Source of the DNA: Labrenzia sp. R4_2
GTDB taxonomy: Bacteria; Pseudomonadota; Alphaproteobacteria; Rhizobiales; Stappiaceae
Length of the DNA: 64,000 nt
Direction of reading: 5' to 3'
Assembly (NCBI RefSeq): GCF_017743865.1
Contig: NZ_JAGHRJ010000010.1
Coordinates: forward strand, 62,001 to 126,000
The notes beneath the pieces were generated by a model. That model saw nothing but the letters and a program-made list of their open reading frames with translations. It was not told the DNA's origin and ran no database searches. Shown here in pieces: positions 3,998 through 21,620 of this stretch. The translations under genes and the position numbers were made by a program. Within the stretch, counting starts at the first letter, position 1; the number at the start of each line of letters is the position of its first letter.

Positions 3998-4083
3998 AGT
4001 GATGTCTCCTGTGATGCGGGCGCACGAAGCCGCGCCGCCGGGCGAGCCGGCAGCGACGGATAGGTGCGGAATTGAGAGAGGGG

Positions 4084-4482: not shown

Positions 4483-4490
4483 GGCGAACC

Positions 4491-5087: not shown

Positions 5088-5230
5088 GGCGGGCTCCTTT
5101 GGGGCCTGTCCCGGGCAGGAGCGCGGCGCACCCTGTCGGCATCACCATCTTCTTCAGCCCTTCCGGACCCCTTTCCGCAGCCGCCTCTCCGTTCGGCCGG
5201 GTCAAGGGCCGGCGTCAGCCGGGCGGAGCT

Positions 5231-6190: not shown

Positions 6191-6672
6191 TTACTCTCCG
6201 CGTTTTGCGCGGTCCTCTCTCCGGTTTCCGCTCCCTATTCTGTAGGGGCGGCAACCCGGCGGCCGCGAAGAGCAAGGCAGGACAAGGGCGCGTCTGGCAA
6301 GCCGGCATTTGTGCCGGGTCGCATGTTTCGCTGCCAGAAGCGGCGCCAGTTTCCCTTGCCGGCCGTTGCGCGCAAGCGGCACCAGGACTTTTCGGTTTTC
6401 TCCAATCCTCTCAACCGCACTGCGCGTCAGAGATGGCCGCCCGTATGGGGAAGACCGCTTGCGGGCTTCAGCTCTGCCAACAGCCCGGCCCGAAGGGCGA
6501 CGCCAAACATCAATCCAGCGTGGCCGACAAAGCTTGGTTACGATAACTGAGAATTATCAGGGCCTCAAAAGCGCGTAGCAATCGCCAGCGCTCTGTCGGG
6601 TCAGACCTGTTAATAGCCCGTGTGTTCTGGCTACTGACCAAAGATTGTATTTAATCTTTGGTCAGTAGCTGC
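6191..6672. other. Intergenic region without a supportable gene
   Basis: About 480 bp between the TOPRIM gene start and the end of the Cys-rich gene. I see no coding region with plausible codon usage. It should hold the promoter for the minus-strand TOPRIM operon. Its only striking structure is the perfect hairpin at 6631-6668, listed separately. Confidence 0.5.
6631..6668. repeat. Perfect 16-bp inverted repeat with 6-nt loop
   Basis: Arm CTACTGACCAAAGATT at 6631-6646, loop GTATTT, exact reverse complement at 6653-6668. It sits five bases beyond the stop of the minus-strand gene at 6673. No T-run follows on either strand, so a classic intrinsic terminator is unlikely. It could stabilise the transcript's 3' end, be a protein-binding dyad, or be a scar of a small mobile element. 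Confidence 0.8.
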
Positions 6673-7116
6673 CTATCGTGCCGTCAACAAACGGCAGGCC
6701 AGTTCCCGGTCGCCCCAACGTGTCGAAAAGGTATCGGAGACTTCGAACCAGCTTCCGTCGTTGCCGGCACCGTGGTTAGCGCCCATGCATGAACATTGGC
6801 ACTCATGACCGAGCGCTTCCTGGCATGCTCTCGCGCAGATCTCCTGCTCGCGGTAGGGTTGAATGATGTTGATCTTGCCATATCTGACCAGCGCTCGATC
6901 GACGAGGTCATTGAACCAGGATTTCGGCAACTCCCAGTAAGCTTCTGTGCCGCCGATCCATTCGGGAGCAGTTCGCCGCCCGTTCTGAAGCCAGTGCCGA
7001 TTGTCGTCGGCGAATGGTAGTCGCACGCGAATGCGCTCGCCTCGCCCCGTACGGCGCAGCACAACAGGTATTTGCTTCTGCTTCCAGACGTAGGAGAGGG
7101 TGAGCTGATCCATCAT
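6673..7116 (-). CDS. Conserved hypothetical Cys-rich protein
   Basis: 147 residues, start at 7116. The N-terminal half is rich in Arg and Trp (RIRVRLPFADDNRHW, TEAYWELPKSWFNDLV). The C-terminal half has a cysteine cluster CARACQ-N5-HECQCSCMGANHG that could bind a metal. I recognise this cluster from uncharacterised alphaproteobacterial accessory proteins but cannot assign a function. It reads in the same direction as the AbiE pair upstream, with about 160 bp between them, and ends at a strong hairpin. Confidence 0.6.
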   Translation of the reverse strand: MMDQLTLSYVWKQKQIPVVLRRTGRGERIRVRLPFADDNRHWLQNGRRTAPEWIGGTEAYWELPKSWFNDLVDRALVRYGKINIIQPYREQEICARACQEALGHECQCSCMGANHGAGNDGSWFEVSDTFSTRWGDRELACRLLTAR

Positions 7117-7279
7117 CTGCCTCAGCTTGTCTCAGAACGCAGGACACGGGACTAATTCTAGTGCTCCGGATTGCCAACGCCCGATGGTTCCGTCTGTCCT
7201 GCTCCCAATGGACGTATCACCAGAATATCAACGCAGCTCTCACCTTTGTATTCTGGCGCTTTACGTCCTTGTTCTCGCA

Positions 7280-8326
7280 TCAGGTTGCGACCTTGTTCAA
7301 TTGATGTTCGATGGCTGCTGCGGATGCAAGCACGTCCTCAAATTCAGGCGCCGTTCCGAAGATCATTGCGGTCGTGTTGGCGTAGTCTTCCTTGAGCGCC
7401 GCCACCATGCCGTCGACAGGCTCAATGGCGAATGTACCCGGCATGGCCGAGGCGAGGTCCATGTCAGGTCGGTTGAAGAACATCCGCGCATGTCGGACGC
7501 AATCTGCACCGAGATCAAAATCTCCGAGGGTAGCCAGGCCCACATCTGAGTTTAGGAGGCAATGAAGATCGTAATAGTGCCGCGACACGCGTTGACCTTC
7601 TTGGCGAAGGACGCCACGCCGCTCATACCAGCGGCGCAAGCCATGCGCGATGACAACCTTGTCCCAGAAGGTCCGTGTTGCCTCGACAGTGGTTACGTCA
7701 GCTACTGCCAAATCCAATGATGACGCCTCGTCGGCGATGTAGGGGCGGATCGTGACGGGCCGATTAGGATCAAGCGCTGACTTTGCGCCGGATTCGATTC
7801 GAACGGCTGGGCGCACATATGCGCCGTCGCGCGGCTCAACCTCTGGATACCAGACGAGAAGTGTCTGTCCGTCGGGATCGGCCTCGTCGATCTCGATGCG
7901 CCCTACACCACCGGTTAGGTCGGCCAGTTGCTCGGCAAGAAGTTCTCGAAGCGGGCCGGTGATATACGCGCGGCACGCGTCCCGGATCGCATCCAGTCTG
8001 GCACGGCGTTTCTTGTTCGAGAGGGCTTCGAGTTCTTCGACCGACGCCGGTTCGTGGAGATCATCGCGGAAAACGGTGATGTCGATATCCTCGGAGAACC
8101 GTTGAATGAGACCGTAAGCTTTCGACAGCGATGTGCCGCCTTTGAAGAGGAGGCGCGGCACTCCGGTAGGTCGCTCATGATAGAGCGCGTTCAGGGTCCA
8201 GCACACCCAGAAGTCCTTCTCGATATTACCCACTGGCGCTCCGAGACGGTTAGCGGTTGCCAGGAATAGATCGAGCCGGTCCCGCGCGGGGGTCTCGACG
8301 ACCTGCTTGTAGGCGGTCGTGCTCAT
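7280..8326 (-). CDS. abiEii: AbiEii/AbiGii-family nucleotidyltransferase toxin
   Basis: 348 residues. The N-terminal region has the nucleotidyltransferase signature of AbiEii toxins: LLFKGGTSLSKAYGLI followed by RFSEDIDITVF, the Gly-Gly-Thr-Ser loop and the Asp-x-Asp metal pair of the polymerase-beta fold. In characterised AbiE systems this enzyme transfers nucleotides to a target and stops growth, giving phage abortive infection or plasmid stabilisation. The start overlaps the antitoxin stop by 4 bp (ATGA type), the usual arrangement of a type IV toxin-antitoxin operon. On a plasmid it may serve as an addiction module, a defence module or both. Confidence 0.88.
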   Translation of the reverse strand: MSTTAYKQVVETPARDRLDLFLATANRLGAPVGNIEKDFWVCWTLNALYHERPTGVPRLLFKGGTSLSKAYGLIQRFSEDIDITVFRDDLHEPASVEELEALSNKKRRARLDAIRDACRAYITGPLRELLAEQLADLTGGVGRIEIDEADPDGQTLLVWYPEVEPRDGAYVRPAVRIESGAKSALDPNRPVTIRPYIADEASSLDLAVADVTTVEATRTFWDKVVIAHGLRRWYERRGVLRQEGQRVSRHYYDLHCLLNSDVGLATLGDFDLGADCVRHARMFFNRPDMDLASAMPGTFAIEPVDGMVAALKEDYANTTAMIFGTAPEFEDVLASAAAIEHQLNKVAT

Positions 8327-8991
8327 TGCTCGGCCTCGTTGGTATCGACGGGAGTGACAAGGTCGCGCAGGAATTCCTGCATCCAGATCGGCAGGGCTGA
8401 AAGGCCGGCGCGAAGGTCGTCACGGATCGCTTTTCCGTGTTTCGGATCAGCGAACAAACGGCGCAGCACATCCCCTACCCGGTCTCGCTCGTCGTCATGG
8501 GACAGCATGTCCTGCATCCAGTACAGGGCCTGGACGACGCGCATGGCCGGTCGGTCGGCCCAGTAGAGCCGGCTCGGGGCGGCGAACTTGAAATGAATTT
8601 CCTGCTTGCCGAGTTTGATCGGCTTCAGCCGTGCATCAACCAGCACTTCGATGCGCGCCGGGACGGCCGTGGTAAGACCGAGATCGTTTGCGGCGGTCAT
8701 GCCGTCGACAACGGCCCGCGCCTGGTCGCGACGGGTGACAGCACGGATCACGGCCCGATAGTCCGGAACGGTGGGCCGTCCCGTCAGGGAGTTTTTGCGC
8801 GGACGATCATAGAGACCGCGATCAATACGGCGAAGCTCGCCGGCGGCGGCGAGCCGCTGCAGGGTTTTGTCTATGGCGGCACGCCCGCCGAGATCGGCGA
8901 AATCGGCAGGCGTCCAGACCTCGTCGGGCTGAGACGCAACCCGAGCAAGCAGTTTGGAACGCAGATCTGTCTCTTGATTTGGATCCGTCAT
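8323..8991 (-). CDS. abiEi: AbiEi-type antitoxin/transcriptional repressor (DUF6088)
   Basis: 222 residues resembling DUF6088. An N-terminal winged-helix segment (WTPADFADLGGRAAIDKTLQRL, then GELRRIDRGLYDRP) precedes the AbiEi C-terminal domain. Known AbiEi proteins neutralise AbiEii without stable complex formation and repress their own promoter by binding inverted repeats. Two such repeats occur here, one ending directly at the start codon at 8991. There is no separate Shine-Dalgarno between palindrome and ATG, so translation may be leaderless or start slightly downstream. It is the first gene of the operon. Confidence 0.85.
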   Translation of the reverse strand: MTDPNQETDLRSKLLARVASQPDEVWTPADFADLGGRAAIDKTLQRLAAAGELRRIDRGLYDRPRKNSLTGRPTVPDYRAVIRAVTRRDQARAVVDGMTAANDLGLTTAVPARIEVLVDARLKPIKLGKQEIHFKFAAPSRLYWADRPAMRVVQALYWMQDMLSHDDERDRVGDVLRRLFADPKHGKAIRDDLRAGLSALPIWMQEFLRDLVTPVDTNEAEQ

Positions 8992-9018
8992 GTCCGAAAA
9001 ATGTCACATTTTTCGGAC
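8992..9018. promoter_or_regulatory. AbiE operator palindrome 1
   Basis: Perfect 13-bp arms GTCCGAAAAATGT around a single central C. It ends directly at the antitoxin start codon, where a bound repressor or an RNA hairpin would block expression. Autoregulation through such repeats is known for AbiEi; assignment here is by position. Confidence 0.75.
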
Positions 9019-9024
9019 GCCAAC

Positions 9025-9063
9025 AAGAGAGTCCGAAAAATGTGACATTTTTCGGACTCTCTT
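9025..9063. promoter_or_regulatory. AbiE operator palindrome 2
   Basis: The same 13-bp arms (GTCCGAAAAATGT) recur at 9031-9057 around a central G. Here the symmetry extends to 19-bp arms (9025-9063). The two palindrome centres are 39 bp apart, suggesting cooperative binding of the antitoxin at the operon promoter. Confidence 0.75.
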
Positions 9064-9332
9064 CGACCGCACAGTACGACCAATTCGCCTTGAATTGCAT
9101 ATTCGCGTTGTCATTTCATTACTCATGCAAACGAGAATGCAGCTAAGCGGGCGGCAGCCTCAGTACGCGACGTGACGAAAGATTGTCGTTGGCTGCGGAA
9201 GGAACAAATGGCTGAATGGGGGCCGACAGCGGACTGGCGGGTTTCTAAATTGCCAGACGGCAGAGCGGACATTCAACCGCACCGTTGCGGCGACATTTTC
9301 GGCCCAAACCTGCCGATTGGTGGACAACAAAT
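9064..9332. other. Upstream region of abiE and left flank of the transposon, no gene seen
   Basis: About 270 bp that should contain the abiE promoter. I find no frame here that continues the gene truncated at the right end of the transposon (17873 onward), so the two flanks do not reconstitute one gene. Confidence 0.5.
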
Positions 9333-9370
9333 GGGGTCGAGTCCGGCTGAGTGCAGAATAGGGCGCTAAG
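9333..9370 (+). repeat. Left terminal inverted repeat of the Tn3-family transposon
   Basis: 38 bp, starting GGGGTCGAGTCCGGC and ending GCGCTAAG. It matches the reverse complement of 17835-17872 at 37 of 38 positions. Length, leading GGGG and trailing TAAG fit the Tn3 family. Confidence 0.93.
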
Positions 9371-9495
9371 AGTTTTTAGCCCGGATTGCCAGCATAATGA
9401 CCCTTCGCTGCGCGATGCTCGAACTGGTGAGATGCGGGCCTCTACTGCCTCTCGCGTCAGGCTGTCGAAGGTTCGCTTTTCCGTGTCGCTGTGAC

Positions 9496-10314
9496 CTACT
9501 GGAACCGTTTCCGCAGCATGTTGCTGAGTGCGTCAACGATTGTCACGGTAGCCAAGATGACGATCAGAACGGCCGACACCTGGGGATAGTCCAGCAGGCG
9601 CAGCGATCCGACGAGTTCGGTTCCGATCCCGCCTGCACCGACCATGCCCATGACGGTCGAGGCGCGGAAATTGTATTCCCACCGATACATTGTGACGTCA
9701 GCGAATTGCGGAAAGACCTGGGGCATTACACCATGGGAGATAACTTGAAGAGACGTGGCGCCAGAGGCTTCGGCGGCTTCGATGGGCGCGGGATGAGCGT
9801 GTTCGATGGCTTCGGCGAAGAACTTGCCGACCATGCCAATCGAATGCAGGCCCAGGGCCAGCACGCCCGGCAGCATTCCAAAGCCAACGGCGGCAACGAA
9901 AATGATGCCCATGATGAGTTCTGGGATAGAGCGCAGCGTGTTCAGCACCAGGCGGGCAGCCTGATAGGCCCACTTGTTCGGCGTCGTGTTCCGCGCCGCC
10001 AGAAAGCCAAGCGGAATCGACAGGACAACGGCCAGTGCGGTGCCAGCAACCGACATGGCGAGCGTTTCGATCATTGGTTCGACCCATTGACGCCAGCGGG
10101 TGAAATCGGGCGGCACCATCTCGGCAAAGAGGGTTCCGATAGCGGGCAGACCGTCGGCCAGCCGCCCGCCATCGAGCATTCCGGTCAGCCAAAGACAGAG
10201 GACAATGATCGCCACTATGCCTCCGATCTGGAGAAGGAGACGCCGCCGCCCTTTGCGATCCGCCGCAAGAATGGTGTCGGCGGTTTGGGGCGTATTGGTC
10301 TGGGCAAGGGTCAT
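9496..10314 (-). CDS. ptxC: Phosphite ABC transporter permease
   Basis: 272-residue inner-membrane permease of the PhnE family. Several hydrophobic helices are visible (LLLQIGGIVAIIVLCLWLTG; SVAGTALAVVLSIPLGFLAA; SELIMG-type stretch). The EAA-like cytoplasmic loop reads EAAEASGATSLQVISHGVMP, where the ATPase docks. PhnE-type permeases import phosphonate, phosphite or hypophosphite. Here the neighbouring phosphite dehydrogenase points to phosphite. It is last in the minus-strand ptxABC operon, 23 bp after ptxB. Confidence 0.85.
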   Translation of the reverse strand: MTLAQTNTPQTADTILAADRKGRRRLLLQIGGIVAIIVLCLWLTGMLDGGRLADGLPAIGTLFAEMVPPDFTRWRQWVEPMIETLAMSVAGTALAVVLSIPLGFLAARNTTPNKWAYQAARLVLNTLRSIPELIMGIIFVAAVGFGMLPGVLALGLHSIGMVGKFFAEAIEHAHPAPIEAAEASGATSLQVISHGVMPQVFPQFADVTMYRWEYNFRASTVMGMVGAGGIGTELVGSLRLLDYPQVSAVLIVILATVTIVDALSNMLRKRFQ

Positions 10315-10337
10315 CGCGGCGTCTCCTCTTTTTGGGA

Positions 10338-11213
10338 TCAGTCGGTTTGCAGATTGCTGCGGATATCGCGGATGATGTCGTAATCGGCATCCGTGATCGC
10401 GGCGAAACCGTCCGCCTTGAACGGGCCAAGCACCGCATCGCCAACCTCGGTACCGGGTTCAAGATCAAGAAAGGCGTTGCGTATGCTGTCCTGCAACTCC
10501 TGCGTCATATCGGTGCGCATGACCCAGGGGTATTGCGGAATATCGGCGGAATATCCCAGGATTACCAAATTGGCGGGGTTCACCGTACCGCGTTCGACGA
10601 GGCGTTCAAAGATTGGACGGCTAAGGCCACCGACCTGGGCGTTGCCGAGTTCGACGTTGCGTGCCACGGCATCATGGGCGCCGGTGAAGTTTTCGTTGTA
10701 ATCCTCGCCCGTCACGACATCTTCAAGCAGCATCGTGTATTTCGGGGCGAAGTGGCTTGATGTCGATGCCTGATCGCCAAAGGCGACGTCCACGCCGGAC
10801 CCTTCGATATCCGCGATGGAACTGATGCCCGCCTCCGCGTTGGCGATGAGGACTGCCTGATAGGTCGTGCTGCCACCGCTGATCCGGGCCGCGAAAGGCT
10901 CGATATCCAGGTCGCTGCCGTCCATACGATCTTTGGCGATCGTGTAGGAGGCGGGGCCGAAATAGGCGACGTCGATGCGACCAAACCGCATGGCCTCAAT
11001 CATGGAAGAGTAATCGGTGGTCACGATCAGTTCGATGTCTTTGCCAAGCGTTTCTTCGAGATGTGCGGCAAGCGGTTCATTGTCCTGAATCACGGTCGCG
11101 TTGTTCTCGTCCGGAAGAAGAGCCACGCGCAGCGTGTCTGGATCATGCTCCCCGGCGGCGAAGGCGGTGCCCGCGAGCAGGGTCGCGGCGAGTGCGTAGG
11201 TGGTCAGTTTCAT
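10338..11213 (-). CDS. ptxB: Periplasmic phosphite-binding protein
   Basis: 291 residues with a signal peptide (MKLTTYALAATLLAGTAFA, cleavage after AFA) and the PhnD/PtxB fold. Family features include LRVALLPDENN near the N-terminus, RIDVAYFGPASY, and VDVAFGDQASTSSHFAPKY, which contributes to the anion pocket. It would capture phosphite in the periplasm and deliver it to PtxC. Paralogues bind phosphonates or hypophosphite. Phosphite is inferred from linkage to ptxD, not from pocket residues. Confidence 0.85.
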   Translation of the reverse strand: MKLTTYALAATLLAGTAFAAGEHDPDTLRVALLPDENNATVIQDNEPLAAHLEETLGKDIELIVTTDYSSMIEAMRFGRIDVAYFGPASYTIAKDRMDGSDLDIEPFAARISGGSTTYQAVLIANAEAGISSIADIEGSGVDVAFGDQASTSSHFAPKYTMLLEDVVTGEDYNENFTGAHDAVARNVELGNAQVGGLSRPIFERLVERGTVNPANLVILGYSADIPQYPWVMRTDMTQELQDSIRNAFLDLEPGTEVGDAVLGPFKADGFAAITDADYDIIRDIRSNLQTD

Positions 11214-11238
11214 CTTTGAATCTCCTGTTGCGATGAAG

Positions 11239-12042
11239 TCAGTTGGCGTCTTGTCCGGACGATCCGTAGATGCGTGTCAGGACAGTGTCGGAAAGCCGTA
11301 AGGGCGGGCCGTCAAACACGATGCACCCCCCGGCCAGACCGATGATCCGGTCCGCGAAGGCCTTGGCGTAGTCAAGCTGGTGCAAGCTGACGATCACCGG
11401 AATGCGGTCTTCCTTGCAGATCGTGCGCAAGACGTTCAGCACGCGCTCGGAGGAGGCCGGATCAAGCGACGCCACAGGCTCGTCCGCGAGGATCATCTTG
11501 GGCTCCTGAGCCAGTGCACGCGCGATACCGACGCGCTGCTGCTGGCCACCCGACAGGCTGTCGCAGCGCGTCAGCGCTTTTTCGAAAAGGCCCACGCGTG
11601 TCAGGCAATCAAGGGCCAGCCGTCGTTCCTCTTCCGAAAAGCCAATCAAAGTGCGCCAGAATGAATGACGGCCAAGCCGCGACAAGAGAACATTGTGCAT
11701 TGCCCCCATCCGGCCGATAAGCTGGTGTTGCTGGAAGATCATCGCCGTATCGCGGCGATGCGCCCGGATGGATTGAGTCGCATCCAGCGTTCCGATCTCC
11801 CGTGACAGGACCGCCCCAGATGTGGGCCGCACGAGCAGATTCAAGGTGCGCAGCAAAGTGGATTTGCCCGCGCCTGAAGGACCCAGCAACACCGTCAATT
11901 CGCCGTCTTCGAAATCAACGGTCGTCGGCTGCAATGCGACCGTGCCGTTCGGATAGATCACTTCGACCTGGTCCAGGCACAGGATTGGTGCCGCATCCGT
12001 CTTCGTATCATTTCGATCAAAAGCCATCTGCTGCTGTCCCAT
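11239..12042 (-). CDS. ptxA: Phosphite ABC transporter ATP-binding protein
   Basis: PhnC-family ATPase, 267 residues from the ATG at 12042. That start has an AGAGGA site about 10 bp upstream; an in-frame ATG at 12081 would add 13 residues but lacks a ribosome site. Walker A GPSGAGKST, Q-loop MIFQQHQL, signature LSGGQQQRVGIARAL, Walker B MILADEP and H-loop VSLHQLDYAK are all intact. It is first in the ptxABC operon and powers phosphite import through PtxC. It is divergent from ptxD across a 118-bp AT-rich spacer. Confidence 0.87.
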   Translation of the reverse strand: MGQQQMAFDRNDTKTDAAPILCLDQVEVIYPNGTVALQPTTVDFEDGELTVLLGPSGAGKSTLLRTLNLLVRPTSGAVLSREIGTLDATQSIRAHRRDTAMIFQQHQLIGRMGAMHNVLLSRLGRHSFWRTLIGFSEEERRLALDCLTRVGLFEKALTRCDSLSGGQQQRVGIARALAQEPKMILADEPVASLDPASSERVLNVLRTICKEDRIPVIVSLHQLDYAKAFADRIIGLAGGCIVFDGPPLRLSDTVLTRIYGSSGQDAN

Positions 12043-12160
12043 ATCGACCGATTCCTCTTCTCTAGATTTTGTGATATGCAATCAAAGCAACAGAAATATT
12101 ACATATTGCGATTATCATCTTGCCTTGATAGCAATGCGTAAAAAGAGAGGGACGCCCGCA
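12043..12160. promoter_or_regulatory. ptxA-ptxD divergent promoter region with LysR-type half-sites
   Basis: AT-rich spacer between divergent ptxA and ptxD. It contains an imperfect inverted repeat, TGATATGCAAT at 12072-12082 against ATTGCGATTATCA at 12105-12117, and a short ATAT-TAC-ATAT dyad between them. LysR regulators bind such AT-rich dyads in divergent promoters, so this is the likely PtxE target controlling both uptake and oxidation. Confidence 0.5.
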
Positions 12161-13159
12161 ATGCACGAAAAGATCATTGTGCCGAACTGGATCGAGGACG
12201 AGACACTGGCCACCCTACGAATGGTCGGCGAGGTCATTTCGAATGACAGCAGAGAGCCGTTATCGTTCGAAAGGCTGAAAGAGGTTTGTGCGGATGCAAC
12301 TGCACTGATGGCCTTCATGACGGAAGCGGTGGACCGCCCATTTCTCGAAGCCTGCCCGCATCTGAAGATCGTGGCAGGGGCACTGAAAGGCTTTGACAAC
12401 ATTGATGTCACCGCCTGCACCGATCATGGCGTGTTGGTCACGATCGTGCCCGATCTGCTGACCGAACCGACGGCGGAACTGACGCTTGGGCTAATGATCG
12501 CTCTGACCCGGAAGATGCGGGACGGCGACGCGCATATGCGCACGGGCACCTACGCTGGATGGCGCGCGCGCTTTTACGGGGGCACATTGCAAGGCGCTGT
12601 GGTCGGCGTCATCGGCGCGGGGGCTGTCGGGCGCGAAACACTGCGATTGCTATCCGGCTTTCGGGGAACGCGGCTTTATCACGATGTGACGCCACTGGAT
12701 CCGACAACCGAGAAAGCGCTGAGCGCGCGCAAGGCTGCGCTGGACGAAATCGTGGCCACATCGGATTTCGTTGTTCTGGCGGTTCCTTTGACCGAGGTGA
12801 CGCTTGGGATGGTCGATGCCGCATTTATCTCCCGCATGAAACCAGGGGCCTGCCTGATAAATCCTGCGCGCGGCAGCCTGGTCAATGAAGCCGCCGTCGC
12901 ATCCGCGCTCGAAACCGGCCATCTGGGTGGATACGCTGCCGACACCTATGAGATGGAAGACTGGGCCAGGCCCGACCATCCACAGCACGTCCACCCCGCC
13001 CTGTTGGCTTCGGAGAAAACCGTTCTGACACCGCATATCGGATCGGCTGTGGTTGAGGTGCGGCGCGCCATCGCAGCCTCGGCGGCGGACAGCATTATCA
13101 CAACACTCAAAGGCGACCTACCCGAGACAGCGCTGAACCCCCAAGTCCTGAAAGGATAA
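12161..13159 (+). CDS. ptxD: NAD-dependent phosphite dehydrogenase
   Basis: Oxidises phosphite to phosphate with NAD+. 332 residues from the ATG at 12161 (GAGAGG 10 bp upstream). The protein belongs to the D-2-hydroxyacid dehydrogenase family, but its residues fit the Pseudomonas stutzeri WM88 enzyme at the same numbering: Met53, Lys76 (ALKGFDN), Arg237 (NPARGS), Glu266 (YEMEDWAR) and His292 (TPHIGSAV), plus the PtxD-type stretches VPDLL and GWRARFYG. The nucleotide loop is GAGAVG (152-157). Asp175 sits where the WM88 protein has Glu175, consistent with NAD rather than NADP. ptxE follows after a 5-bp gap. Confidence 0.92.
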   Translation: MHEKIIVPNWIEDETLATLRMVGEVISNDSREPLSFERLKEVCADATALMAFMTEAVDRPFLEACPHLKIVAGALKGFDNIDVTACTDHGVLVTIVPDLLTEPTAELTLGLMIALTRKMRDGDAHMRTGTYAGWRARFYGGTLQGAVVGVIGAGAVGRETLRLLSGFRGTRLYHDVTPLDPTTEKALSARKAALDEIVATSDFVVLAVPLTEVTLGMVDAAFISRMKPGACLINPARGSLVNEAAVASALETGHLGGYAADTYEMEDWARPDHPQHVHPALLASEKTVLTPHIGSAVVEVRRAIAASAADSIITTLKGDLPETALNPQVLKG

Positions 13160-13164
13160 GTGTG

Positions 13165-14028
13165 ATGCTGAACCTGAGCCTTGTGCGCAGCTTTGTCGGT
13201 CTTGTCGAAGCGGGTAGTTTCCATGGCGCTGCGACCCGCTTGAAGATCGCACAACCGACAATTTCACAGCATTTGCAAAAGCTTGAAGAGGATTTAGGCG
13301 TTCCACTGATCGAGCGTAGTCATGCTGGCAGCCGTCCGACACGGCATGGCGAACGCTTCCTGCCTCATGCGCGCCATCTGTTGAAATCTGCTGCACGCGC
13401 CGAGACCATCGCGCGCGACGACAGTCTGATCGTTGGGTGCAGTGGCAATATCGCCAGCTACTATATGGCCAAGGCGTTCAAAGGGTTTCTGGACGCGGAG
13501 GAGTGGCGAGGCCGGTGGGAAATCACCTCGGCACCCAATCCCCGCATCGCCGAGATGCTACTGAGCCGGGAGATCGACATTGCGGCAATGGAATGGCCCC
13601 TTTCACACCCGGATGTCGCGGCAGAGCGGTGGCGCAGCGCGGAGATGATCGTGATCCTGCCCACCGACCATCCTTGGGCGGGCCGCCGCGAGATCACCGT
13701 CGAGGAGTTCCTCACACTTGAAATGATCGGGGGCGAAAGTGGATCCGGCACCGGCACGCTCCTGCGCGATGTGCTGGGTGACAGGGCCAGCGAACTGCGC
13801 ACGCGCGCGAATGTCGGATCGACCGAAGCCGTCAAACAGGCTGTCATGTCCGGCTTGGGGGCCTCGATCATTCTCGCCGAAGCTGTGACCCATGAAATTG
13901 ATACCGGCGCATTGATCGGTATTTCCATCAAAGGAATAGCGATGAAGAAGACATTCTTCACAGCCCGCTTGAAGACAATCAGCGACGACGAAATCGCAAC
14001 AAAGCTGTCCCGCTTTCTGACAGGCTAA
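13165..14028 (+). CDS. ptxE: LysR-family regulator of phosphite utilisation
   Basis: 287 residues from the ATG at 13165, with an AAAGGA site at the end of ptxD (a GTG at 13162 is less likely). An N-terminal winged helix-turn-helix (FVGLVEAGSFHGAATRLKIAQPTISQHLQKLEEDLG) is followed by a LysR substrate-binding domain. By position after ptxD it corresponds to PtxE of characterised ptxABCDE loci. It probably acts on the ptxA-ptxD spacer; the effector is unknown. Confidence 0.82.
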   Translation: MLNLSLVRSFVGLVEAGSFHGAATRLKIAQPTISQHLQKLEEDLGVPLIERSHAGSRPTRHGERFLPHARHLLKSAARAETIARDDSLIVGCSGNIASYYMAKAFKGFLDAEEWRGRWEITSAPNPRIAEMLLSREIDIAAMEWPLSHPDVAAERWRSAEMIVILPTDHPWAGRREITVEEFLTLEMIGGESGSGTGTLLRDVLGDRASELRTRANVGSTEAVKQAVMSGLGASIILAEAVTHEIDTGALIGISIKGIAMKKTFFTARLKTISDDEIATKLSRFLTG

Positions 14029-14233
14029 GACCGACCCGCAAACTGGCGCACGACTACATTTGATCTTTGTACTGCAAAGCAATCACTCGTTGGCGGTTGG
14101 TCAGCACGGATCTTGATCCTGCCCGTTTCGCTGAAGCCGCCATCCATGCAGATCGCAGCATTGGTCAAAGTGGGCTTGGAGTCAGATTTCGCTGGCTGCT
14201 GATGAATGACCAGTGGTGTCGCTGCACGAGGTT

Positions 14234-17131
14234 TCATAAGTTTTCCGCCATCTGCCTCCACCGATATTCACCTGTGAGGATAATATGTGCCCATCCGAGG
14301 GGCGAGATATGTGAGAGAAGATATGCGGGTGTATCGAGCCCAGCCTTTTGTCGCGCGGCGACCGCAAAACCGAGTTGCTTGGTGTTCCAATAGATGATGA
14401 TGGCGGTGAGCAGGTTCAGCCCTGCGATGCGGAAATGCTGGCCCTCAGTTGTACGGTCGCGGATTTCGCCTTGCCGACCGATGCGCAGTGCGTTCTTCAG
14501 GGCATGATGTGCTTCCCCTTTGTTGAGGCCAATCTGTGCGCGACGCTGCATATCGGTATCGAGTAGCCAATCAATGATAAACAGTGTCCGCTCGATACGT
14601 CCGATTTCGCGAAGGGCAATGGCCAGATCATGTTGCCGTGGCCGTGCTGCCAGTTTCTTCAGAAGCTGACTGGGCTGCATTTTCCCGGAGAGCATCGTCG
14701 CGATGCAGCGCAACACGTCCGGCCAGTTGGCGATGATCGTGTTTTCGCGGATGTGGTCACCGATCAGGCCTTTTAGTTCGTTCGGGACCCCATGACGATC
14801 AAAGACATGCAGCCGCTTTGAAGGTAAGTCCTTGATGCGCGGGATGAACCGGTAGCCGAGTAACGAGGTGGCCGCAAAGACGAGGTCTGTGAAGCCGCCC
14901 GTATCTGCGTATTGTTCTTTTATCCGTTTGCCGCTCGGGTTCATCAGCAAACCGTCCAGAATGTACGGTGCCTCGTTCACTGTAGCTGGGATGACTTGTG
15001 TGGCGAAGGGGCCATATTGATCTGATACATGGGTATAGGCTTTCAGGCCTGGCTCATGGCCGTACTTCGCATTGATCAGATTCATTGCCTCGCCCTGGCG
15101 TGTGGTGGGAAAGAACTGACCGTCACTGGAAGCGGTTTCACCAGCACCCCAGTATTTTGCCATTGGCAACCACGCCTGTGCATCAATCACCATAGCCAGT
15201 GCCCGATTGATGGCTTCACTTTCCACGTGCCAGTTTGAGAGCCGGGCCAATTGCTTAAAGTTATGGGTACTGCTTGCCCCGGCCATTTTGCTCAGACCCA
15301 GATTCAGACCTTCAGCCAGAATGACGTTCAACAATCCAAGCCTGTCTTTACATGGTGCTCCAGTGCGCAGATGTGCAAATGCGTCGGTGAACCCTGTCTC
15401 ATTGGCTACGTCCATGAGAATGTCTGTGACCCGCGCTTCTGGCAGACGGCGATAAAGATCGAGTATGAGGTTGTCGGCTTCAGCGGGAACGTCAGCTTCA
15501 AGGCGTTCGACGCGCAATCGCCCATCCTCGATGATCCCGCTTGGGAGGGCGCCGTTCCTGACTGCCTTGGCAAGCCTGTGCAGTCCGTCTTCCAGCCGTT
15601 GTTTTCGATCTGCAAGCCAGACTTCCGGCTCCAATGGCATCGACAATCCCATAGTCTGCGCGGCCCCGACCGGAACCAGAGCCTGTTTCAGGTCGCTGTA
15701 GCGGCGAGAATGAGCAAGCCAGACATCACCGGATCTGAAGGCCTCACGCAGATGGAACAGCACCGCGACAACCCAGAGACGGTCCCGGTTTGTTTCGGGG
15801 TCGCGAAGATGCCCTCGCCATTTTGATCGAGGCTGAAGAAATGGCGCAGAGCGGCTTGGAATATCTTGCCTGTCGCGGATCACATCGGCCGCGGCAAGCA
15901 AAGGCTGAGCCACACTGGCCCCTGTGATGTCCAATGTTGCCAGCATTCGGGGGGCATAGAGCTTGAACCTATGATACCCCTGCTCGACATAAGCCAGTGC
16001 ATCCGCCTTGACGGTCTTACTGAGTGACCCTGCTGTTGCAACGAGGTTTTCCAGAGCATCCCAGCCACAAGAAGCATCCACGGCACCGGCGACAGCCACC
16101 TCATCTCCCTTGGCGATCAATAATGTCGTGCCCAAAGTCTCAAACCCGGCCAGGGTCGCCGCGATCTCCGATTGCGCCGCGGTAACACGGGCATCGCAAA
16201 CCCTCTTTGCCTCCCGCCAGATTGAGCCAACGATCCGGTCATGTGTTTCGACAACGGTATCTGCGATTGCGGCTGCCCATTCCACGACGCAGGCGGCAAG
16301 GATGGCCAGTCGCCGATCACTGGTGATGTCGCGCAATCCATCCGTGAAGTAACGTTCGCCCTGACGGCGAAGGCGTGCGACCCGATGTGCGGGAATGTCG
16401 TCCAGTATTGTTGGCGACAACGCGATCCCCTGCAGGAATTCCAGCCGGTCGAGCTGGCGGTTGATATCGGCTGAGTTCTTGCCCACTTCAAACTGTCGCA
16501 ACCAGATGAAGCGGCTGATCCGGCTATCAGCGTCTTCATTGAGCAAACCGTTAAGTTTGGCTTTCATTTCGAGGTCGATACGTGCCGCAATGCGAGCCTC
16601 GATCCGTTGTTCGGCCGCAACCAATGCATCCGCACAGTGTCGTTCTATGACCGACAGGCCGGGCAGAACAATCTGTCGTCCGCGGCATTCCTCCACAAAC
16701 CCGCGAACCAAACCCTCACTCGATTGAGCCGCCTCGGCTTGCTGGTCCAACCACCTCTGCATTTTCTTGGCATGTTTACCGGCAAACATCTTGTAACCGT
16801 ACATCTTACGCAGTGAGCCGAGATGTTCTCGTCGTGTCTTCTCACGGGCGGCATATTGCAGCAGGTCATCTGGTTTCAGTCCAATTTGAGCGGCTATGAA
16901 CCGGGACACAGGTTCCGGTATGACTTCGCCAGCCTTCAGCAAACGGCCCGGAAAACGAAAGGCACAAAGCTGAAGCGCAAAGCCGATCTGGTTCTCTGGC
17001 CGTCGCCGTGTGCGGATATGTTCAATGTCCTCATCATCCAGAGTGTAATGCCGCAGTAACGCCATCTCGTCTGTAGGGAGATCAAAAAGTGCCGCGCGTT
17101 GTCGCGCGGTCAGAACCGCTCGGTGTGCCAT
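14234..17131 (-). CDS. tnpA: Tn3-family transposase
   Basis: 965 residues, close to the usual ~1,000 of the family. The N-terminal Tn3 transposase DNA-binding region starts LTARQRAALFDLPTDE. The DDE catalytic region is visible as Asp in SSDGQFFPT, Asp in YADTGGFTDLVF and Glu in NKGEAHHALKNALRIG. It catalyses replicative transposition at the 38-bp ends. It is transcribed away from tnpR across a res-like spacer and appears full length, so the transposon may still be mobile. Confidence 0.93.
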   Translation of the reverse strand: MAHRAVLTARQRAALFDLPTDEMALLRHYTLDDEDIEHIRTRRRPENQIGFALQLCAFRFPGRLLKAGEVIPEPVSRFIAAQIGLKPDDLLQYAAREKTRREHLGSLRKMYGYKMFAGKHAKKMQRWLDQQAEAAQSSEGLVRGFVEECRGRQIVLPGLSVIERHCADALVAAEQRIEARIAARIDLEMKAKLNGLLNEDADSRISRFIWLRQFEVGKNSADINRQLDRLEFLQGIALSPTILDDIPAHRVARLRRQGERYFTDGLRDITSDRRLAILAACVVEWAAAIADTVVETHDRIVGSIWREAKRVCDARVTAAQSEIAATLAGFETLGTTLLIAKGDEVAVAGAVDASCGWDALENLVATAGSLSKTVKADALAYVEQGYHRFKLYAPRMLATLDITGASVAQPLLAAADVIRDRQDIPSRSAPFLQPRSKWRGHLRDPETNRDRLWVVAVLFHLREAFRSGDVWLAHSRRYSDLKQALVPVGAAQTMGLSMPLEPEVWLADRKQRLEDGLHRLAKAVRNGALPSGIIEDGRLRVERLEADVPAEADNLILDLYRRLPEARVTDILMDVANETGFTDAFAHLRTGAPCKDRLGLLNVILAEGLNLGLSKMAGASSTHNFKQLARLSNWHVESEAINRALAMVIDAQAWLPMAKYWGAGETASSDGQFFPTTRQGEAMNLINAKYGHEPGLKAYTHVSDQYGPFATQVIPATVNEAPYILDGLLMNPSGKRIKEQYADTGGFTDLVFAATSLLGYRFIPRIKDLPSKRLHVFDRHGVPNELKGLIGDHIRENTIIANWPDVLRCIATMLSGKMQPSQLLKKLAARPRQHDLAIALREIGRIERTLFIIDWLLDTDMQRRAQIGLNKGEAHHALKNALRIGRQGEIRDRTTEGQHFRIAGLNLLTAIIIYWNTKQLGFAVAARQKAGLDTPAYLLSHISPLGWAHIILTGEYRWRQMAENL

Positions 17132-17256
17132 CGGATTGCTCTTTCGTTAGGAGATGTGGTCTTTGAAAGTAGACATATTGAGACATCAGGCTTGCCATGT
17201 CTTTTTCAATGTCTCAACATGGTTGTCGCATGAACCCTTAGTTTATATGAGACCCA
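17132..17256. promoter_or_regulatory. Putative res site and divergent tnpA/tnpR promoters
   Basis: 125-bp spacer between the divergent tnpA and tnpR. It holds an inverted repeat TTGAGACAT (17178-17186) / ATGTCTCAA (17209-17217) and a further ATGAGAC close to tnpR. Tn3 resolvases bind several such subsites between the two genes to resolve cointegrates and to repress both promoters. Exact subsite limits cannot be set by eye. Confidence 0.65.
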
Positions 17257-17808
17257 ATGGCCAAAGTTGGATATGCCCGTGTCAGTTCAGTCGGACAATC
17301 TCTGGACGTGCAGCGTGAAAAGCTGAGTGATTGTGACAAACTGTTCGAAGAAAAGCGCAGCGGCACCACCGATGCCCGCCCTCAGCTCAAGCAATGTCTG
17401 AATTATGTCCGTGAAGGCGACCAGCTGATTGTAACGCGCATCGACCGACTGGCCCGATCCACTTTGCACCTATGTCAGGTCGCGGAGACGCTGCGCGAAA
17501 AGGGCGTCGATCTTGTCGTCCTCGACCAGAACATCGACACATCCGATGCATCTGGTCGTCTGTTGTTCAACATGCTGGGTGCTATCGGCCAATTCGAGAC
17601 TGAGATCCGGGCCGAACGGCAAATGGACGGAATCAAGAAGGCGAAAGATCGCGGCGTTCAGTTCGGCAAGCGGCCTGCGCTAACCAATGAACAGATCGCA
17701 GAGCTCCGCGAAAAACGTGCTCAAGGTACGCTGATCAAAGACCTCATGGCTGAATACAGCCTCTCTAAGGCCACCATCTATCGCTATCTCACCGAAAACG
17801 CAGCCTGA
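17257..17808 (+). CDS. tnpR: Tn3-type serine resolvase
   Basis: 183 residues. The N-terminal resolvase domain has catalytic Ser10 in GYARVSS, and the active-site arginines are visible in VTRIDRLARS. The C-terminal helix-turn-helix reads LIKDLMAEYSLSKATIYRYL. It resolves cointegrates made by TnpA at the upstream res site. It ends 26 bp before the right inverted repeat. Confidence 0.93.
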   Translation: MAKVGYARVSSVGQSLDVQREKLSDCDKLFEEKRSGTTDARPQLKQCLNYVREGDQLIVTRIDRLARSTLHLCQVAETLREKGVDLVVLDQNIDTSDASGRLLFNMLGAIGQFETEIRAERQMDGIKKAKDRGVQFGKRPALTNEQIAELREKRAQGTLIKDLMAEYSLSKATIYRYLTENAA

Positions 17809-17834
17809 GCTCGACTACATAAGCCCAATCCGGG

Positions 17835-17872
17835 CTTAACGCCCTATTCTGCACTCAGCCGGACTCGACCCC
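17835..17872 (-). repeat. Right terminal inverted repeat of the Tn3-family transposon
   Basis: 38 bp, reverse complement of 9333-9370 except for one position (GCGTTAAG instead of GCGCTAAG at the inner end). Confidence 0.93.
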
Positions 17873-18493
17873 ATATACAAGATGCTCGAAGAAAACGACG
17901 TGGCGTCGGTCGAGGACCTTCGGGCCTTGATGGTCGAGCAGTTGGAAGAGCTGCAGCGTTGGCTCAACGGCTCGGAGACCGATCCGCTTGTTTCCTTCTA
18001 TTACGGCGACAAGCGCGTCGATGAAAACACCGCGCGCAACAGGATCGTGGATCAACTGCAAGGGCAAATGAAGGCCCTTGGCTTGTCGATCGTGATCGAG
18101 CGTTACATGGCGGGCGGCAATCGCTGTGACATCACCGCGTCCGCCATTCTGGAAGGACGCAATCGCCTTCTCGTGACGGAGGTGAAGGGCCAGTGGAACG
18201 ACGAGCTATACTCGGCTGCCGCCGCACAGTTGGATCAGCGATACGCGATTCACCCCGACGCTGCGCGTCAGGGCGTCTATATCGCACTGTGGTTTGGCAA
18301 CGGCGAAAAGGTCAACGGTCTGGTTGATGCGAGCGTCACATCGGCCGGCGATCTGAAGGCGCGCATTCTCGATAAGATGACGGATGAGCTGAAGGCGCGG
18401 GTTGACGTGGTTGTGCTCGACCTGTCGCGGCCGCCCAAATTGCCGAAGCCGCCTAAAAAGACGTCTGCGAAGAAGGCCGCGCCCAAAAACTAA
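17873..18493 (+). pseudogene. 3' remnant of a large gene cut by the transposon, nuclease-like C-terminus
   Basis: The frame is open straight into the transposon end, and its first ATG (17882) has no ribosome site, so this is the tail of a longer gene. About 204 residues remain. They include a PD-(D/E)xK-like pattern: Asp in NRCDITASAI, then Glu-Val-Lys in LLVTEVKGQW, followed by SAAAAQLDQRYAIHPDAARQ. The C-terminus is a Lys/Pro/Ala-rich tail. I have seen this tail type at the end of large uncharacterised proteins but cannot name the family. With AbiE on the other side of the transposon, the site may have been a defence locus; that is inference. Confidence 0.7.
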
Positions 18494-19005
18494 AGCCAGC
18501 CGCTAGGGTGAAACCCAAGCCCTTGCCAGCTTAGAAGATTGGGGCAAGGATGCCCGTCTCATTTGTGGCATCGCGCTCGTCAAGTCACGCGTTGTTTACT
18601 GAAGGCAAGCGGAACAACTATTTCTAGGTCCCCATCCAATGCCTTGGTCGCACACTAGCGTACATCCAGCTGTGGTGAGCGGCTGCTATCCCAGCTCCGC
18701 GTACAGAAGCTGACCGTCCGGAAGCGGCCCCTCTTCGGTCATTCGTGCCGACCGCAGCAAATGTCCGTTCTCCGCCCTGTCAGGACCTTGCTGCTTAGTG
18801 CAACGAGTGACTGCTTCCGGTAACTAAGTCCAGGATAGTGAACGGCTGAACCGGGGGCGCATTCCTGTCCGGCTCATTTGGAGCCGTTCGCGGACCGTCC
18901 GCTTTTCAGCGAAAAACATGAGAAAGCTGACCTAATACGGTCACTCAATCGGTGGAAAGGAAGGGCCTGATATCCAACCTTCTCCACCCAGAAACCCAAT
19001 ACTTG
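18494..19005. other. Intergenic region, no gene seen
   Basis: About 510 bp between convergent genes. No frame shows coding character, no RNA gene is recognisable, and there is no strong hairpin with a T-run. It probably marks the junction between the disrupted gene and the metal/redox island. Confidence 0.5.
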
Positions 19006-19707
19006 CTACCCAACCGTGACGCCAAACAACGCTCCTACCGCTGCTGTCGCAGCCATTGCGAGAGCGCCCCAGAGGGTGACCCGCGCAGCGCCCCGAATGA
19101 TACCAGCGCCGCCGGCGGATGCGCCCAGACCGCCGAGGACCGCGAGGCCGACGATCGTCAATGCCGCCACGAACAGCGCAATCGACGTTTCAGGCGCCAA
19201 TAGAACGACGATCAGCGGAACGACCGCACCCACGGCGAATGTGAGAGCTGAGACCAGCGCCGCCTGGATCGGGCGTGCCGTCACGGTCTCGGAGATGCCG
19301 AGTTCGTCGCGGGCATGCGATCCGAGCGCGTCGCGTTCGGTCAGCTGGTGGGCCACCTTTTCCGCCAGGTCGCGATCCAGCCCCCGTTCTACGTAGATCC
19401 GGGTGAGCTCCTCGAGCTCTGCCTCAGGCGTTTCCGCCAGCTCGCGGGTCTCGCGGGCAAGATCGGCTTGTTCCGCATCAGTCTGCGAACTGACCGAGAC
19501 GTATTCGCCTGCGGCCATGGACATCGCACCGGCCACGAGGCCAGCCAGCCCCGCGATCAGGACCTCCGGCTTTCCCGATCCTGCCGCGGCGACGCCGACC
19601 ACGAGGCTTGCCGTCGAGACGAGCCCGTCGTTGGCGCCGAGAACGGCGGCCCGCAGCCAGCCGATGCGATGCACCATGTGGATTTCGGAATGCGAGAGGC
19701 GGCTCAT
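19006..19707 (-). CDS. VIT1/CCC1-family divalent-metal transporter
   Basis: 233 residues. Family hallmarks include LGANDGLVSTASLVVGVAAAG in the first membrane segment, GLVAGAMSMAAGEYVSVSSQ in the second, a charged cytoplasmic segment with many Glu residues (ETRELAETPEAELEEL), and three hydrophobic segments at the C-terminus. VIT1/CCC1 proteins move Fe2+ or Mn2+ out of the cytoplasm, often coupled to protons. It is last in the six-gene minus-strand operon, overlapping the P-type ATPase gene by 4 bp, so iron or manganese handling is a reasonable role. Confidence 0.88.
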   Translation of the reverse strand: MSRLSHSEIHMVHRIGWLRAAVLGANDGLVSTASLVVGVAAAGSGKPEVLIAGLAGLVAGAMSMAAGEYVSVSSQTDAEQADLARETRELAETPEAELEELTRIYVERGLDRDLAEKVAHQLTERDALGSHARDELGISETVTARPIQAALVSALTFAVGAVVPLIVVLLAPETSIALFVAALTIVGLAVLGGLGASAGGAGIIRGAARVTLWGALAMAATAAVGALFGVTVG

Positions 19708-21620
19708 GGCGTGGCTCCTTGCGCGATGTCGTCCTGCCCGGAGGAGACAGCCTTTGGTTTCGGAGGGGTGGGTTCATGGGGCGCGATGCGCAGCGCACGG
19801 AGGGCGTTCAGGATAACTGCAACGTCGATGACCTCCTGCAGGAGCGCACCCTGCACCGGAGTGAGATAGCCGAAAGCCGCCGCGATCATGCCCATGACCG
19901 ACAGCCCGATCCCGGCGACAACGCTTTCAACAGCGATGCGCCGCGCGCCGCGCGCGATCTCGATCCCCGGCCCGAGCCGGTCGATACGGTCGACCAACAG
20001 CACGACGTCTGCCGCCTCCGCCGATGCAGCGGCCCCGCGTGCGCCCATCGCGACACCCACATCGGCCGCCGCGAGGGCCGGCGCGTCGTTGACGCCGTCG
20101 CCAACCATCATCACGGGCCCGCGCTTGCGCTCGGAGAGAACCAGCAGAACCTTCTGGTCGGGCGTGAGCCCGGCGCGCAGCCCGTCGAGGCCAAGCCCCT
20201 CGGTCACGCGCTCGGCCACGTCGGCGCGGTCGCCGGTGGCGAGCAGGATTCGCGCGATCCCCTCGCCGCGCAGCCCGTCGAGCATGGCGCCCGCGCCGTC
20301 GCGCAGGGGATCGGACATCACGAGATGCCCCGCCATGCGCCCGTCGACCGCGACCGCGACGAGGACCGACCCGGCGGCAATGGCCGAATGATCGCCGGGC
20401 CTCCGTCCGACGCGGGAGGCGACGAAGGCATCGCCGCCGACGATGACCTTCCGGCCCTCGACATGGCCCACGACGCCTTCACCCGGGATCTCAGCCACGT
20501 CCGACGGAACCGGCAGCGTGAAGCCGCGCGCCTTCGCGGCCGCAACGATGGCCTGCGCCACGGGGTGCTTGGACGCCTGGTCGAGCGCCGCAGCGAGGCG
20601 CAGTATGTCGTCCTCCGCCATCCCGTCGTGGCTATCAATCGAGACGATCTGCGGCCGGCCGTCCGTCAGCGTGCCGGTCTTGTCGAGGATCAGCGTTCGG
20701 ATGCGCGCCATCGTCTCGAGCGGTCCCGCGCCCTTTATCAGCACCCCGAAATGCGCGGCACGCGACAGCCCGGCCACCAGCGCCACAGGCACGGCCAGGA
20801 TCAGCGGACAGGGCGTGGCGACGACGAGCACGGCGACGGCCCGGATCGGGTCGCCGGTGAACCACCATGCAGCGAAGGCAATGCTGACCGTGACCGCCAG
20901 AAACCCCAGCGACCAACGGTCGGCCAGCCGCGACATCGGCGCCTTCGAGGCCTGCGCCTCCTCGACCAGCCGGACGATCCCGGCATAAGTGCTGTCCTTG
21001 GCTTCTCTCGTCGCCGTCAGATCGAACGCCTCGCCTGCGTTTGTGGAGCCGCTCATGGCTTCGGCGCCGTGGGCGAGGCGCACTGGCAGGGACTCGCCCG
21101 TCAGCGCGGAGGTGTCGACGAAGGCCGTCTCCGAGGCCACCGTGCCGTCCACCGGCACCACGTCGCCCTGACGGATCAGGAGGCGGTCGCCGGGCGCGAT
21201 GTGGTCGAGCGGGATCTCCTCCAGCCCGCCGTTGCGGTGGCGGGTCGCGGTCCGCGGCACGCGGGAGAGGAGGTCGTGCATCTCGCGCCGGGCGCGGCCT
21301 TCGGCGAAGGCTTCGAGGAATGTGCCGCCGGAATACATCACCGCGACCACCGCCGCGGCGAGGGTCTCGCCGAAGACGAGCGCCGCCGACATCGACAGCG
21401 CTGCGACGATATCGAGGCCCACCTCGCCGGAGCGCAGGCTGCGCAGAATCTCGACCACGAGTGCAGCGAGCGCGGGAACGACGCCGGCGATCCAGATCAG
21501 GTTCGCTGCTTCGGGTCGGCCGGAAAAGTAGAAGGCAAGTCCCGCAATCAGGCCGGTCGCGGCAATGAGCAGGATAGCGGTCTTGAAGCGGTCGGTCCGT
21601 GTCGTTTCCATGCGGCTCAT
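19704..21620 (-). CDS. P1B-type heavy-metal-translocating ATPase (TPC motif)
   Basis: 638 residues. All catalytic motifs are intact: TGES (174-177), DKTGT phosphorylation site (313-317), SKHPVAQAI (the HP motif of P1B pumps) and GDGVND. The ion-site motif is TPCPL (269-273) rather than the CPC/CPH of copper pumps or the SPC of cobalt pumps; TPC-type pumps have been linked to nickel, iron or related metals. There is no N-terminal CxxC metal-binding domain. It overlaps apbE upstream by 4 bp and the VIT1 gene downstream, so it is a tightly coupled member of the operon. Direction is presumably export; the metal is not certain. Confidence 0.88.
   Translation of the reverse strand: MSRMETTRTDRFKTAILLIAATGLIAGLAFYFSGRPEAANLIWIAGVVPALAALVVEILRSLRSGEVGLDIVAALSMSAALVFGETLAAAVVAVMYSGGTFLEAFAEGRARREMHDLLSRVPRTATRHRNGGLEEIPLDHIAPGDRLLIRQGDVVPVDGTVASETAFVDTSALTGESLPVRLAHGAEAMSGSTNAGEAFDLTATREAKDSTYAGIVRLVEEAQASKAPMSRLADRWSLGFLAVTVSIAFAAWWFTGDPIRAVAVLVVATPCPLILAVPVALVAGLSRAAHFGVLIKGAGPLETMARIRTLILDKTGTLTDGRPQIVSIDSHDGMAEDDILRLAAALDQASKHPVAQAIVAAAKARGFTLPVPSDVAEIPGEGVVGHVEGRKVIVGGDAFVASRVGRRPGDHSAIAAGSVLVAVAVDGRMAGHLVMSDPLRDGAGAMLDGLRGEGIARILLATGDRADVAERVTEGLGLDGLRAGLTPDQKVLLVLSERKRGPVMMVGDGVNDAPALAAADVGVAMGARGAAASAEAADVVLLVDRIDRLGPGIEIARGARRIAVESVVAGIGLSVMGMIAAAFGYLTPVQGALLQEVIDVAVILNALRALRIAPHEPTPPKPKAVSSGQDDIAQGATP

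Follow-up and report, generated by a model that had tools for sequence, protein, structure and literature searches.

A Tn3-family transposon with predicted phosphite-assimilation genes on a plasmid of Labrenzia sp. R4_2 and at six other loci

The patchy occurrence of phosphite use is generally explained by horizontal transfer, with no vehicle named. Transposons of the Tn3 family, whose consensus terminal inverted repeats are about 38 bp long and start with GGGG, include catabolic elements such as Tn4651 of TOL. The ptx genes of Acinetobacter plasmids (PMC10117892) and the ptx-ptd island of Desulfotignum phosphitoxidans, which lies between transposases (PMC4046663), are taken to result from lateral transfer. 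Catabolic Tn3 transposons and mobile ptx genes are both already known kinds. Here we describe a 64,000-nucleotide stretch of Labrenzia sp. R4_2 (NCBI RefSeq assembly GCF_017743865.1, contig NZ_JAGHRJ010000010.1, positions 62,001 to 126,000; hereafter the window, whose coordinates we use), in which positions 9333-17872 are a Tn3-family unit transposon of 8,540 bp. We read it, with a probability of roughly 0.92, as an active-type replicative transposon that has a self-contained phosphite-assimilation unit as its passenger.

The 38-bp ends of the element are identical at 37 positions and have the length and GGGG start of the family; the inverted arms, at 9331-9370 and 17835-17874, match at 98% over 40 nt. 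The window contains a 33-bp piece of the end two times (0 occurrences in 100 shuffles); elsewhere in the strain's 5.66-Mb assembly, this piece was not found with up to three mismatches allowed. The assembly holds a single copy of the element and one pair of ends. Seven genes lie between the ends, all of them open: ptxC, ptxB, and ptxA on the reverse strand, ptxD and ptxE on the forward strand, then tnpA (reverse) and tnpR (forward). A preliminary description of this stretch, made from the sequence alone, had placed full-length tnpA and tnpR and a complete set of ptxABC, ptxD, and ptxE within 38-bp ends. This anatomy is borne out by the intact frames, by the Pfam domains of the two transposition genes, by Pfam matches of the ptx genes, and by NCBIfam matches of ptxC and ptxA. 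TnpA carries the Tn3 DDE domain PF01526 over its full length (1.8e-129) and scores 977.6 bits against NF033527 (cut-off, 500).

That the two ends belong to one element, as the preliminary description assumed, is evident from other genomes. The full unit (bases 1-8540) is present end to end at six other loci, at 95-99.98% identity: a plasmid of Labrenzia sp. THAF35, a plasmid of Roseovarius indicus, an uncultured Tateyamaria assembly (L011), and three contigs of two metagenome-assembled genomes. Perfect 5-bp target duplications bound four of the six copies (L042, L043, L010, and L012), and each is different (TGAAA, ACAAC, ATATC, and TTTTT). The copies on Labrenzia pTHAF35_c (NZ_CP045383.1; L042, 8001-16540; 99.98% identical) and R. 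indicus pRIdsm_03 (NZ_CP031601.1; L043; 95% identical) share the ends and gene order of the window copy but occupy other insertion sites, with their 5-bp duplications intact; the gene tables of these plasmids name neither ptx genes nor a transposon unit. When one duplication is taken out, the Labrenzia flanks rejoin into a single open frame of at least 702 codons, the right part of which is TraG (T4SS-DNA_transf, 1.7e-129), and thus the element inserted cleanly in a transfer gene. The interruption of traG may have deprived the THAF35 plasmid of its own coupling protein.

The copies form two sublineages. One comprises the window and Labrenzia copies, with 2 differing positions in 8,540, and the other comprises five Rhodobacterales copies, with 0-6 differing columns among them; 414-417 columns (about 5%) differ between the two. 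Because flanks are unlike within each sublineage, the movement looks recent, and the existence of two sublineages, each at unlike sites, would imply recent transposition plus plasmid transfer. Of 1,449 codons in the five ptx genes, 155 differ synonymously and 33 non-synonymously between the window and R. indicus copies, a strong excess of silent changes that speaks for selection keeping these genes functional (the count covers one pair, with no neutral model fitted, and leaves out tnpA because of a gap). We are inclined to think that this transposon, dedicated to phosphite assimilation, is now spreading among marine Alphaproteobacteria of two or more orders, by recent transposition and plasmid transfer under selection for phosphite as a source of phosphorus. 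The earlier proposal that transposition would explain the spread of phosphite use gains support from the six further copies, four of them with different duplications.

The predicted phosphite dehydrogenase aligns without a gap, over residues 3-326, to the PtxD chain of PDB 4e5n (E 8e-98), an engineered PtxD of Pseudomonas stutzeri. M53, K76, R237, E266, and H292, the five residues that the preliminary description had located at the P. stutzeri positions, are all present, as are W134, Y139, S295, and R301. In a 43-row tree, the window PtxD groups with the P. stutzeri type, inside a 31-row clade (support 100/99) that includes 4e5n, and not with other 2-hydroxyacid dehydrogenases. The five paralogues from the same genome that entered the tree all fall outside this clade (the other two of seven, L005 and L008, are under the 251-aa length limit), and the second-best PtxD match in that genome is 32% identical. 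Neither outcome that the preliminary description had named as refuting was obtained: PtxD does not cluster with non-phosphite dehydrogenases, and the ends do not come from different elements. Two partial matches (L026 and L030) were dropped from the 33 genome_contigs loci for the residue table and the tree.

The solute-binding protein is closest to PtxB as well, with its best structure match at 8.2e-84 to 5o2j. Outside three PtxB-like chains, the next phosphonate-type protein is 9lf9 (2.8e-20); matches to E. coli-type PhnD (3p7i) and HtxB are at 2.5e-17 and 1e-9. The phosphite-contact residues of P. stutzeri PtxB are D16, Y49, Y94, S124, T125, S126, H155, and Y203 (PMC5700983), and the window protein keeps all eight, as D35, Y68, Y118, S150, T151, S152, H180, and Y228. 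These residues include the group 2 features given in that paper, namely, a capping Tyr and Asp, an STS-H motif, and equivalents of Y49 and Y94. The permease and the ATPase pass the PhnE and PhnC cut-offs, as is expected of PtxC and PtxA. PtxABC would import phosphite, and PtxD would oxidize it to phosphate with NAD+.

It is very improbable, in our view, that the element carries an ordinary 2-hydroxyacid dehydrogenase beside a phosphonate importer, with no phosphite pathway. NCBIfam does name the permease PhnE and the ATPase PhnC, and public records of the Labrenzia and R. indicus copies name only an NAD(P)-dependent oxidoreductase. However, the clade membership and conserved residues of PtxD, a PtxB that is far nearer to 5o2j than to 9lf9, 3p7i, or HtxB and retains the phosphite cap, and the finding that none of the seven element genes is a C-P lyase gene led us to drop phosphonate use as the principal interpretation. 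We also think it unlikely that the ptx genes move mainly by plasmid conjugation, with the transposon as a passive passenger. The window contig has repC (at about 33299-33817) and aligns over 34 kb with a repABC/trb plasmid, as such a history would predict, but the window and Labrenzia copies are 2 positions apart and yet have unlike flanks, and the five nearly identical Rhodobacterales copies (0-6 columns) mark at least three sites with duplications. As the element sits on a plasmid with conjugation genes, its spread was probably by conjugation and transposition combined. Several observations weigh against an active-type transposon that carries phosphite genes. The NCBIfam matches of PtxD include no model named for phosphite dehydrogenase, and the best is glyoxylate reductase, at 207.6 bits, well under the cut-off of 455. 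The R. indicus tnpA has a frame shift. In an even sample of 385 class-level genomes from a larger group, the element ends (up to three mismatches) were found only in the strain's own genome, and the unit was in none of 36 relatives compared. The window copy has CAAAT and ATATA outside its ends, and the Tateyamaria copy likewise has no target duplication. The L009 copy (7175-15712) has mismatched flanks, with that of L012 on its left and that of R. indicus L043 on its right; as L009 and L012 are in the same metagenome-assembled genome, this may be an assembly join via the repeat, a recombinant, or a sign of two copies in that genome.

The preliminary description did not mention that, at the window copy, the 5-bp sequences bordering the two ends differ. 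A target duplication is a property of a single insertion, so a later rearrangement can remove it, and the flanking sequences suggest that insertion was probably followed here by a deletion, by recombination, or by a join in the assembly. We lean toward an adjacent deletion, a replicative event in the same molecule beside the right end that would have taken one target duplication and most of the neighboring gene. Homology to large plasmid proteins begins at the first base of the right flank, at residue 1180 of a 1,371-aa Phaeobacter protein and residue 978 of a 1,169-aa Vibrio protein. The Phaeobacter protein has no other match in the strain's own genome (E 0.001), sequence of one and the same Roseibium-type plasmid resumes on either side of the accessory block, and the assembly has one copy with one end pair. 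Against a deletion, the gene may already have been shortened when the element inserted, an N-terminal part could have diverged too far for the search to find, and identity to the plasmid is unequal in the two backbone pieces (88.8 versus 99.3%). Moreover, recombination between two element copies or a join made by the assembler would leave the same picture, and L009 seems to be such a hybrid. Such a joining of flanks is possible at the window copy too, at somewhat less than even odds: it would account for the mismatched CAAAT and ATATA, and the assembly is a draft of 26 contigs, but the single copy and the same plasmid backbone on either side speak against it. It would leave the reality of the element untouched, since the element is bounded by duplications elsewhere. 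The right-flank DNA (17873-19000) had no match in the plasmid collection, and a search for the empty site with 1-kb flanks in 61 genomes, including the strain's own, gave long matches in that genome only; 9 and 8 other genomes had matches of at most 113 bases. The large-gene relatives (1,169 and 1,371 aa) have no Pfam hit and lie near partition genes in Vibrio and near conjugation genes in Phaeobacter.

By its sequence, the carrier is a repABC/trb-type plasmid. Positions 29886-64000 (34 kb) are 99.3% identical to the repABC/trb plasmid of Roseibium sp. Sym1, positions 3-6506 are 88.8% identical to the same plasmid, and the element sits in a 23-kb block between these two stretches. This block was not found in the compared stretches of the Sym1 plasmid (1-46,000 and 150,000-192,102), nor is that plasmid among the 14 records that match the element. 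An AbiEi/AbiEii pair lies to the left of the element (7280-8991), with a perfect 27-bp inverted pair, perhaps an autoregulatory operator, just upstream of the abiEi start (8992-9063). A heavy-metal P-type ATPase / VIT / PepSY module at 19000-25000 is 82-89% identical to Rhodobacterales plasmids (15 matches listed); beside a Roseibium-type backbone, it perhaps represents a second between-order transfer in the same block.

For enzyme activity, regulation, and the cointegrate pathway, our account draws on gene families. TnpA would join the 38-bp ends to a new target, giving a cointegrate and a 5-bp target duplication, and TnpR would resolve the cointegrate at a site between tnpA and tnpR. A 13-bp inverted pair in this gap (17174-17186 and 17209-17221) is compatible with a res site but is no proof of one. 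The element would thereby pass from replicon to replicon by transposition and from cell to cell on plasmids. PtxE would probably control both divergent operons from the spacer that separates them (Table 1).

Table 1. Features of the transposon and of its right flank, in window coordinates
Feature	Position	Strand	Evidence or remark
Left 38-bp terminal inverted repeat (GGGG...TAAG form)	9333..9370	+	Inverted-arm search, end comparison
ptxC (phnE-like), permease, 272 aa	9496..10314	-	PF00528; TIGR01097, 303.9 bits (cut-off, 216.7)
ptxB, phosphite-binding protein, 291 aa	10338..11213	-	PF12974 (phosphonate-bd); best solved relative PtxB 5o2j
ptxA (phnC-like), ATPase	11239..12027	-	PF00005; TIGR02315, 297.1 bits (cut-off, 266.1); start from annotation of near-identical Labrenzia copy
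ptxABC/ptxDE divergent spacer, 133 bp, 58% A+T	12028..12160		Presumed two-way promoter and PtxE operator
16-bp block TATTACATATTGCGAT	12097..12112		Six-locus spacer alignment; candidate operator or promoter
ptxD, phosphite dehydrogenase (predicted), 332 aa	12161..13159	+	2-Hacid_dh Pfam, structure alignment, residues, tree
ptxE, LysR-type regulator	13165..14028	+	PF00126, PF03466; start follows annotation of Labrenzia copy
tnpA, Tn3-family transposase, 965 aa	14234..17131	-	PF01526 full length; NF033527
Gap between divergent tnpA and tnpR, presumed res site	17132..17256		13-bp inverted pair
tnpR, serine resolvase, 183 aa	17257..17808	+	PF00239, PF02796
Right 38-bp terminal inverted repeat, one mismatch to left end	17835..17872	-	Inverted-arm search, end comparison
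C-terminal remnant (about 200 aa) of large gene	17873..18493	+	Homology from first base outside right end

The element also has relatives without ptx genes. An element on a Ruegeria YS9 plasmid has ends that are each 35/38 identical to ours, a target duplication (CATAT), and tnpA and tnpR genes at 88% and 93%, with an autotransporter gene in place of ptx; Sulfitobacter OXR-159 has a 3,684-bp relative with tnpA and tnpR but no cargo and with more diverged ends (30/38; duplication TCCCA). Together, the Ruegeria element with other cargo and the bare Sulfitobacter one place the passenger slot between the left end and tnpA. End-like sequence occurs in ten plasmid records (E 0.05), and the others examined (L086-L090) have a single end or a poor pair.

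A second Rhodobacterales ptx lineage (Thioclava, Celeribacter, Seohaeicola, Profundibacterium, and Sulfitobacter) has the same divergent ptxCBA|ptxDE order as the window element, a PtxD at 66-67% identity, and a 16-bp spacer block in common with it. In four loci of this lineage that were checked, ends of the window type were not found; unlike the window element, the lineage has IS5 and TniABQ-type transposon genes nearby. Its divergent island at L045 (5116-11714; also L013, 6116-14455, and L014-L018, L038, and L095) is 99.8-99.96% identical, over 5.8-8.5 kb, to seven other loci in Thioclava, Celeribacter, Seohaeicola, Profundibacterium, and others. Islands of this type adjoin 3.5-kb TniABQ-type transposons, which in Thioclava stand on both sides in direct orientation, and they are likely another mobile vehicle for ptx. 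A composite of two TniABQ elements around the Thioclava ptx genes is kept as an observation only, as the 5-bp flanks checked were unmatched. A Tn3 tnpA (67%) near the Celeribacter ptx genes (L015) was rejected as a second ptx transposon: no ends of the window type were found within 12 mismatches, and the sole Tn3-form candidate end in the scanned stretch is unlike the window ends and lies to one side of ptx.

Among the 33 genome_contigs loci, 12 have the divergent gene layout (L009-L019 and L038) and 14 have ptxA, ptxB, and ptxC upstream of ptxD on the same strand. L036, at a contig edge, has B and C in the latter position, and L022 has A and C there, with B elsewhere; L039 has a transporter on the opposite strand at least 6 kb off, no transporter match was obtained for L040 and L041, whose PtxD matches are the poorest, and L030 and L031 are not classifiable. 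A 15-row PtxD clade (100/99) consists of exactly the 12 divergent loci together with the rows of the window, R. indicus, and Sulfitobacter. In the sequences compared, the divergent layout is a mark of one alphaproteobacterial ptx clade, not of the transposon, and, as it also occurs in ptx loci outside the element, it is probably older than capture by the transposon. The divergence around an AT-rich spacer that the preliminary description reported stands as to the divergence, while a value of 58% A+T over 133 bp is only moderately AT-rich. Despite a PtxD identity of only 67% between the two ptx lineages, the 16-bp block is identical in their aligned copies, but L019 does not retain it; we regard it as a candidate promoter or PtxE operator common to both.

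PtxD relatives (E 1e-60 or better) occur in 699 records of the plasmid collection, 577 of them from Klebsiella; the identity is 95% or higher in 2 records, 60-80% in 4, and lower than 60% in 693. Plasmid-borne ptx genes are thus common in this collection, and the Tn3 unit is a rare, separate vehicle. One E. coli plasmid (L092) has a colinear locus near IS26 with a PtxD almost identical to the P. stutzeri type. No PtxD was confirmed in the viral contigs searched. One genome of the same genus (L068, G008:C8:537625-539943) matches the ptxC/ptxB/ptxA stretch at 67-69%, with no ptxD among the matches listed.

Compared with the ptxABCDE locus of P. stutzeri WM88, the window element has homologous genes, a PtxD that aligns without gaps, and the same catalytic and pocket residues; its transporter and dehydrogenase operons are divergent, whereas those of WM88 are colinear. 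PtxD is 49% identical to the nearest plasmid genes of the WM88 type. Among the open-access papers listed, which do not include the work of Wilson and Metcalf (2005) with Alcaligenes, none was seen to describe a Tn3 unit transposon that carries ptx, and the accessible text on the mobile ptx loci of Acinetobacter and Desulfotignum (PMC10117892 and PMC4046663) describes no unit transposon with matched ends and duplications such as the one in the window. With a vehicle defined to the base and insertions that look recent, the spread of reduced-phosphorus use in marine bacteria can be tracked via the 38-bp ends, and the element would be a natural, selectable, single-purpose phosphorus cassette. Transposons of the Tn4651 type have inverted ends of similar size, a TnpA, 5-bp duplications, and metabolic passengers, as the window element does. 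Unlike them, it carries genes for use of a phosphorus source rather than for aromatic catabolism or resistance.

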